A stretch of 64,000 bases of DNA, from assembly GCF_017794765.1 (NCBI RefSeq), contig NZ_CP051236.1:384672-448671 (forward strand), read 5' to 3'. Below the pieces are notes generated by a model. That model ran no database searches. It saw only the letters and a program-made list of their open reading frames with translations, and was not told where the DNA came from. The translations under genes and the position numbers were made by a program. Origin of the DNA: Nitratireductor sp. GTDB taxonomy: Bacteria > Pseudomonadota > Alphaproteobacteria > Rhizobiales > Rhizobiaceae. The first letter of the stretch is position 1, and every line of letters starts with the position of its first letter. This document shows, one piece after another, positions 5,817 through 6,663 of the stretch.

Positions 5817-5892
5817 CTATGCACCCCTTGCAGAACCGGACGAACGCCTCCACATTGGGTGTGTCGTCAACAAACCGAAAGGAGGTGATCCA

Positions 5893-5961
5893 ATGTCGAG
5901 TGATTTCCGTTCAAGCGTGGTCTCGATGGATTGCCTTCGCGGGGAGCAGTCTTCCCGCTGA
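5893..5961 (+). CDS. Possible 22-residue micro-ORF inside the small RNA
   Basis: The ORF begins MSSDFRSSVV and ends at TGA 5959-5961. It is preceded 7 nt upstream by the strongest Shine-Dalgarno in the window, a complete match to the anti-SD and its flanks. A second short frame (5978-6013) begins MDCNRRP, echoing the SMDCLRG inside the first. Translation may be the point of the element, or the SD may simply capture ribosomes; the sequence cannot decide. No homologue is recognised. Confidence 0.4.
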   Translation: MSSDFRSSVVSMDCLRGEQSSR

Positions 5962-6029
5962 AGCGCATGAAACGCGGATGGACTGCAATCGCAGACCAGC
6001 CATGACCGCGTGAGAATTCGAAAACACGG

Positions 6030-6061
6030 GGCCGTTCCTTCGGGAACGGCCTTTTGTTTTT
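6030..6061 (+). terminator. Strong intrinsic terminator with UUCG tetraloop
   Basis: GGCCGTTCC (6030-6038), loop TTCG, and GGAACGGCC (6043-6051) form a perfect 9-bp stem capped by the very stable C(UUCG)G tetraloop. TTTTGTTTTT follows. It ends the small RNA unit that begins near 5877. Confidence 0.9.
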
Positions 6062-6102
6062 AGAATGGGTTTCGTGTTTGATCAGAAGGCGCTGACTTCG
6101 AA

Positions 6103-6145
6103 GCCCCTTCTCCCCGTGCACTGAGAGAAGGTGAGGATGAGGGGC
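6103..6145. repeat. REP-like palindromic intergenic element
   Basis: GCCCC at 6103 pairs with GGGGC at 6141-6145, enclosing CCTTCTC/GAGAAGG around a short loop. The wording (CCTTCTCCCCGTG...GAGAAGGTG..GATGAGGGG) is like the dispersed extragenic palindromes common in Rhizobiales chromosomes. It lies just downstream of the nuclease gene stop. Confidence 0.6.
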
Positions 6146-6178: not shown

Positions 6179-6634
6179 TCAACACACGAACGAAACCCGC
6201 CGCCCGCCGCCATAGGCCGCCACAAGCCGGGCATCCAGCAGACGCGATGCAACATCTCCGCCCGGTTCCGTCACCACATCGGCAAGCACGCGCCCGTAAT
6301 ACTTGCCGCCGCTAATGTCGCTTATCCAGACAGTCCCTTCGGCGAGCAAGCGCTCGAGCGCTACGCGTGCCTCGCGCGCCGCAGCCTTCTCGACAGCACA
6401 GCGGCTTCGCATTTCGGGTGCATCGACGCCGCGAATGCGCACGCTCACCGTGATGCGCTGGCCGGGCCAGACATGCGCCTCGGCAACAAATGTATCTCCG
6501 TCGATCACGCGAACGACACGCGCCTCCACCGGTCCGGAGATCGTCTCCCTGCGGGCTGCGTGGGAGGTGGGTTGCCAGACCAGCAGACAGGCAATTGCCA
6601 GCGCAGATATGAATATGGGACAAGAGAAACGCAT
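6179..6634 (-). CDS. Secreted thermonuclease-like (SNase-domain) protein
   Basis: A 151-residue protein with a Sec signal peptide (hydrophobic core IFISALAIACLLVW, cleavage near SHA). A staphylococcal-nuclease-type OB-fold domain follows: VVRVIDGDTFVAEA, then VRIRGVDAPEMR, then YYGRVLADV. The calcium-binding Asp and catalytic Arg/Glu-type positions look present. It probably degrades or binds nucleic acid in the periplasm or outside the cell. Its start codon and ribosome-binding region lie within the perfect palindrome at 6626-6663, so translation may be sensitive to that hairpin. It follows the DUF1674 gene in the same direction. Confidence 0.8.
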   Translation of the reverse strand: MRFSCPIFISALAIACLLVWQPTSHAARRETISGPVEARVVRVIDGDTFVAEAHVWPGQRITVSVRIRGVDAPEMRSRCAVEKAAAREARVALERLLAEGTVWISDISGGKYYGRVLADVVTEPGGDVASRLLDARLVAAYGGGRRVSFVC

Positions 6635-6663
6635 TAGAGGAATATATTCCTCTAATGCGTTTC
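6626..6663. repeat. 38-bp perfect palindrome over the nuclease start codon
   Basis: The sequence from GAAACGCATTAGAGGAATA onward is followed by its exact reverse complement, with no loop; the centre is AATATATT at 6641-6648. The nuclease ATG (6634-6632) lies in one arm and an AGAGGA ribosome-binding-like sequence in the other. As RNA it would make a long hairpin sequestering both. Confidence 0.9.

Follow-up and report, generated by a model that had tools for sequence, protein, structure and literature searches.

A predicted small RNA of Nitratireductor and its alphaproteobacterial relatives, with a full complement of the 16S rRNA tail, whose fold or fate may be set by translation

Within a 64,000-nucleotide stretch of Nitratireductor sp. 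DNA (the window, to which all positions refer), the forward strand carries an element that belongs to a family widespread in Alphaproteobacteria and may well encode a small RNA on whose fold or fate translation itself decides. Comparison among relatives bears out the predicted parts of this element and their conservation: a complement of the 16S rRNA tail that would act as a Shine-Dalgarno (SD) sequence, a short open frame encoding a near-neutral peptide, competing helices, and a terminator. The core of SD, start codon, drifting short frame and terminator is what one would expect of such an RNA. An earlier note on this DNA had proposed either an RNA that captures or senses ribosomes or a tiny protein expressed under the control of RNA structure. 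This points in the right direction, as start, frame and stop are conserved and the SD does lie in a conserved hairpin; the helices drawn in the note find no support, and the peptide does not seem to be kept as a product.

The 16S-tail complement and the micro-ORF

Positions 5877-5892 (+ strand) read GAAAGGAGGTGATCCA and pair with the tail ...TGGATCACCTCCTTTCT of the 16S rRNA of a same-genus genome. The reference was the 16S end from that one genome, the single such end found among 20 relatives, reading CTGCGGCTGGATCACCTCCTTTCTAAGG and identified as SSU rRNA by Rfam, a search of the genome of the window itself having yielded none; against it the match extends over 16 nt, UGGAUCACCUCCUUUC, so that the exact complement noticed earlier was confirmed and its length corrected from 15 nt. 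The 14-nt core of the complement has a single exact copy in the 3.7-Mb genome, and with one mismatch it finds one further site, as does a reversed control pattern. This single exact copy, together with the occurrence of the element across genus, order and class, rules out a chance origin. The match is far longer than translation ordinarily needs.

The ATG at 5893 opens a 22-codon micro-ORF, MSSDFRSSVVSMDCLRGEQSSR (5893-5961, + strand), which ends at a TGA at 5959-5961, just as the earlier note had read it. Among 166 distinct sequences the frame holds 14-27 codons in 158, is longer in seven and is ended by the contig edge in one; TGA closes 94 of them, TAA 47 and TAG 24, and the lengths of the remaining two frames scatter. 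Exactly 18 codons are present in every one of the 20 sequences of the Rhodobacterales type and in 29 of the 32 of the Sphingomonadales type, 14 codons in all seven ORFs of the Bradyrhizobium type, and 21-25 codons with the start kept in all 76 BLASTN-found loci examined in the window's family.

The sequence within this frame drifts. Past codon 4, pN/pS is about 0.66-2.7 over the groups, values drawn from pairs that are not independent and from an RNA whose structure lowers synonymous change, so that they could still accommodate a weakly selected peptide. For codons 5-12 and 13-22, respectively, it is 0.99 and 2.69 among the family's 22-codon ORFs and 0.76 and 0.77 among its 23-codon ORFs; the corresponding pairs of values are 0.66 and 0.95 in Rhodobacterales and 1.54 and 1.35 in Sphingomonadales. 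For vsh and mss, with 6-11 pairs to draw on, the values span 0.71-2.52. Change is spread evenly over the three codon positions of the micro-ORF. Synonymous change is absent from codons 1-4 in the window's family and in Sphingomonadales, a pattern suggestive of constraint at the RNA level, but is present there in Rhodobacterales and Bradyrhizobium. Since start, frame and stop are kept while pN/pS is near-neutral, selection seems, from these comparisons, to act on translation and not on the peptide. A type I toxin was set aside, as the peptides lack conservation and, by eye, do not look hydrophobic.

Competing helices and their variation among clades

The folding energy of the RNA strand, -82 kcal/mol, is lower than that of any of 200 shuffles, which average -63 (z = -4.0). 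Structure was tested on an alignment of 66 family sequences, with shuffles that ignore relatedness. Hairpin H1 (5881-5938, + strand), predicted from pairing in relatives and by RNAalifold, joins the SD at 5881-5892 to codons 12-16 of the ORF at 5927-5938 and holds the start codon in its loop. Its 11 pairs between 5881-5891 and 5928-5938 are formed in 94.9% of alignment cells, and its closing pair, 5892-5927, is GC in 42 sequences of the RNAalifold alignment, AU in 12, GU in four and broken in eight; other changes in H1 are mostly one-sided. The exchange of Cys and Arg at codon 14 coincides with a U/C change that preserves a pair to the SD. Hairpin H2 (5939-5946 with 5951-5958, + strand), whose last base directly precedes the stop codon, is paired in 94.7% of cells and has both-sided changes in six of its eight pairs.

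Two further helices share one strand. The long-range helix HL (5915-5922 with 6004-6011, + strand) is paired in 88.6% of cells, with a covariation score of 0.284 against at most 0.118 in slid versions and 43 double-change cells against 9.5 in shuffled alignments. The local helix H3 (5972-5977 with 6006-6011, + strand) offers the 3' strand of HL an alternative partner and is paired in 93.2% of cells, its covariation of 0.197 comparing with at most 0.072 in slid versions. Covariation of H2, H3 and HL exceeds both shuffled and slid controls, and H1 is conserved. Scores are low for the terminator, paired in 63.9% of cells, and for helix 4, the inner portion of H3, paired in 41.2%; loop lengths vary among the rows in this region, and many rows end before the terminator does. 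H3 and HL are mutually exclusive, both requiring 6006-6011; HL is not nested with H1, and the two might coexist as a pseudoknot.

RNAalifold, run unaided on the 66 relatives, recovers H1 and H2 and reports neither HL nor H3. In the window the modelled energies of the two states are nearly equal, -82.0 kcal/mol with HL and -80.7 kcal/mol with H1 and H3, and pair probabilities are about 0.54 for HL, 0.45 for H1 and 0.27 for H3. Masking the middle of the window's ORF in silico yields H3, masking the stop region yields H1, and HL stays when the SD and start codon are masked. Across the 66 relatives a probability above 0.5 is reached by HL in 50, by H1 in 10 and by H3 in one; HL is thus dominant in silico in most relatives, and the window's even balance is not general. 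The test of the two pairings covers the window's family alone.

The nested helices TGGTCT/AGACCA and GATTGC/GCAATC, in which the earlier note suggested looking for compensatory changes, were not borne out: in the 66 relatives they are paired in 55.1% of cells against 55.4% in shuffles, and they covary no more than the shuffles do, although they do exceed slid versions in cells paired (27.7-47.2%). GCAATC is lost already in the nearest same-genus rows, and TGGTCT overlaps the 5' strand of HL but the partner in HL is a different one. A second frame, MDCNR, starting at ATG 5978, is present in five of 66 rows, all from the window's genus.

Clades differ in whether the SD is buried by a 16S-tail mimic inside the RNA. 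When the SD was compared with shuffled probes, the internal mimic fell in the best 5% for 52 of 75 sequences of the window's family, 15 of 20 of Rhodobacterales, seven of seven of the Bradyrhizobium type, seven of 15 of the phyllo set, 12 of 42 of mss, three of 33 of vsh, two of seven others and none of 29 Sphingomonadales, against a background of 19 of 161 control stretches. The values for Sphingomonadales and vsh rule out SD burial as a universal rule; the long 16S match itself is retained in clades that lack such burial. The Rhodobacterales mimic lies shortly upstream of the terminator, with at least seven contiguous pairs in 19 of 20 sequences. In Sphingomonadales codons 3-6 can pair instead with GCTGACCATG (31 of 34), a predicted pairing that may replace SD burial. 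As far as these alignments reach, the wiring varies by clade, and the common parts are the SD, the start codon, the short frame and the terminator.

Transcription unit, distribution and relation to CC2171

Promoter-like boxes are visible by eye at 5827-5832 (CTTGCA) and 5851-5856 (CACATT) on the + strand; a promoter scan with an E. coli-type consensus found none at the window element. Among relatives, 105 of 172 loci have a TTG 43-56 nt 5' of the SD, whereas a control stretch has one in 36 of these loci. It is present in all 20 Rhodobacterales, all 15 loci of the window's type and six of 34 Sphingomonadales, with no excess in Sphingomonadales or the Bradyrhizobium type. At the other end an intrinsic terminator is predicted at 6028-6061 (+ strand), its stem at 6028-6053 capped by the UUCG loop that the earlier note had pointed out and followed by a T-rich tail. 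Terminator-like hairpins accompany 159 of the 172 loci, 131 of them 140-190 nt past the SD, in counts made without a shuffled control.

The next sizeable ORF, taken as a gene, is at 6179-6634 on the - strand, and there is, as had been stated, no same-strand gene directly downstream. By a crude ORF caller, flanking ORFs over the 172 loci vary in family and strand, the largest cluster touching 20 loci, and no constant co-directional downstream gene was found. With neighbours this variable, the element looks like a stand-alone gene.

The surroundings hold some features of their own. Directly past the terminator, 6100-6145 (CCCCTTCTCCCCGTGC...GAGAAGGTGAGGATGAGGGG) resembles, by eye, a degenerate palindromic intergenic repeat (REP-like), and a perfect palindrome with 19-nt arms and no spacer (6626-6663) lies over the start codon of the - strand ORF 6179-6634. 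At one related locus (L022) an FMN riboswitch (117.1 bits; 1126-1276, - strand of that locus) follows the element at a short distance and on its strand.

A BLASTN search with the 221-base element found it in 10 of 10 genomes of the genus, 162 of 247 of the family and 84 of 199 of the order, so that it is conserved well outside the strain. The pattern AAGGAGGTGATCCNRTGTC, with at most one mismatch, occurs in 95 of 385 genomes of the class, and no match of the control pattern was seen in the class sample rows. One genome, G210, is the sole member of that sample with two sites, one exact and one mismatched. In a phylum sample of 200 the pattern is present in 30 of 51 in-class genomes and five of 149 others; all five out-of-class matches are mismatched, and the reversed control has one match in the 200. 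Four of the out-of-class genomes (G852, G861, G894 and G919) share the same one-mismatch match, AAGGAGGTGATCTGATGTC, which is also present in some in-class genomes; outside the class it marks gene starts with a strong SD, or else relatives at a very great distance.

A named collection yielded at least 116 stretches with the pattern. Among the matches listed, 110 are ranked Alphaproteobacteria; of the other six, five are without class (one titled Bosea) and one is a gammaproteobacterial record, with a different frame of 44 codons. Orders among the matches listed include Hyphomicrobiales (at least 39), Sphingomonadales (at least 34), Rhodobacterales (at least 17), Rhodospirillales (at least six), Acetobacterales (at least four) and Caulobacterales (at least four). 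The pattern is also present in six IMG/VR contigs, four of which (L294, L295, L297 and L299) bear a Bradyrhizobium-type or Brevundimonas-like element, perhaps in host flanks of proviruses; in L298 the frame is 71 codons long and looks like chance.

No match at the gathering level of Rfam was found in the window. The family is partly known: cmscan reports RF01867 (CC2171), a Caulobacter sRNA family, at 34.2 bits (E 5.4e-5), below its gathering score of 75. Nineteen of 20 related loci likewise match CC2171 below threshold, at up to 73.3 bits. The CC2171 consensus contains GAAAGGAGGUGAUCCAGUGUCUCAU, and both it and the window element have a 5' block GAAAGGAGGUGAUCC-A-GUGUC and a terminal hairpin; in the window alignment the block GAAAGGAGGUGAUCC is indeed followed by RUGUC. 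Between the 5' block and the terminator the window's family seems to have a structure of its own that differs from the CC2171 consensus, the fit of the window in mid-structure being poor, with many non-standard pairs and a 46-base insert. With its score below the gathering level, the window element is taken as a distant relative of CC2171 and not as a member. Rfam 15 names RF01867 as an improved family, the improvement being one covarying pair. In a Mesorhizobium huakuii screen (PMC5596092) MH_s33, with sequenced coordinates of 215 nt, is annotated as RF01867, which makes it a candidate relative of the window element. Passages and listings of the CC2171 literature make no mention of a micro-ORF, a 16S match or alternative helices, and we found no paper in the open-licence PMC literature on CC2171 function or on an RNA of such anatomy.

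A model, its rivals and known systems

These observations suggest the following course of events. The 5' end of the RNA would pair with the whole 16S tail and recruit a 30S subunit, which in the window's lineage would have to open H1, where the ORF mimics that tail. The ribosome would then translate a short ORF of near-irrelevant sequence and stop beside H2. Its passage would choose the pairing of the 3' half, either HL or a combination of H3 and an H1 that forms again once the ribosome has passed, and the product would be an RNA in a translated or untranslated state, the peptide being incidental. The RNA is probably regulatory, its 3' half being free of ribosomes; a switch driven by ribosomes is our inference, as is any action in trans. 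Extended to the whole class, the model becomes an RNA switch with the ribosome as ligand, in which the full 16S tail opens a built-in mimic, a ribosome crossing a meaningless ORF sets the 3'-half fold, and the supply of free 30S subunits is reported without a downstream gene. We offer this extension tentatively. Counted against the switch are the dominance of HL in relatives, the RNAalifold result without HL or H3, the mostly one-sided changes in H1, the possible pseudoknot of H1 with HL, the clades without SD burial (none of 29 Sphingomonadales, three of 33 vsh) and the confinement of the two-pairing test to the window's family.

The main rival is a ribosome decoy or ribosome-protected RNA, in which a parked 30S subunit titrates subunits or shields the 5' end and the stop of the ORF lets ribosomes leave. 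In STAB-SD leaders a bound 30S subunit shields the 5' end from decay. A 16S match far above need, kept where internal burial is not, argues for this reading, and every clade examined has in common no parts beyond the SD, the start, the short frame and the terminator; a decoy, however, needs neither conserved competing helices nor burial of its own SD, and we regard it as rather unlikely. Next comes a coding reading, in which the RNA is the message for a working micropeptide of 14-26 residues or serves two functions, one of them through its peptide. The strong SD, the conserved start, frame and stop, and peptide starts that recur across loci (MSSD, MSHG and VSH) are what such a gene would show, but pN/pS values that in several groups approach or exceed 1, even change at the codon positions and a codon 14 exchange that tracks retention of an SD pair make it improbable.

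Two other readings concern the partners of the RNA. Its GGAGG-rich 5' end could make it a sponge for sRNAs whose seed is an anti-Shine-Dalgarno sequence, the alphaR8 group (UUUCCUCCCU) among them; CrfA of Caulobacter, described as a sponge for sRNAs of this kind in a passage of PMC12559287, is a precedent. Only GGAGG (5 bp), however, fits the alphaR8 core by eye, against 16 nt to 16S rRNA, and a start codon and a conserved stop follow the match, which makes a sponge very unlikely. A leader or attenuator of an adjoining gene would have a similar anatomy of short ORF, alternative helices and terminator, but the window's next gene is on the other strand and flanking ORFs vary over the 172 loci (crude ORF caller); this reading, the least probable of those considered, was rejected.

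An RNA that is present across many orders of one class and has no known job is rare. If ribosome passage does set the fold of this one, it would be a direct cellular readout of translation capacity, and the orphan family CC2171 would gain a function open to experiment. Lists of sRNAs may hide translated RNAs whose peptides are unimportant.

Among known systems, the proposed RNA stands near the dual-function sRNAs. Spot 42 and SgrS are dual-function sRNAs with functional peptides. rnTrpL of Sinorhizobium meliloti is another, whose peptide is described as functional in a passage of PMC10117765. The window RNA shares with all three a short frame in a small RNA, translation being predicted here, and its start, frame and stop are conserved; unlike theirs, its peptide looks near-neutral, pN/pS speaking against a functional one, and its SD is complementary to the 16S tail over its full length. 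Ribosome-mediated attenuators and leader peptides have in common with it a short ORF, competing helices and a terminator, but the window element lacks a constant downstream gene. Finally, anti-SD sRNAs of Rhizobiales, represented by SmelA075/A099 (PMC3927594) and alphaR8 (PMC12559287), carry CCUCC according to passages of those papers. They and the window RNA are alphaproteobacterial sRNAs built on SD/anti-SD letters; unlike them, the window RNA bears the full SD itself, with a weaker internal anti-SD mimic in some clades.
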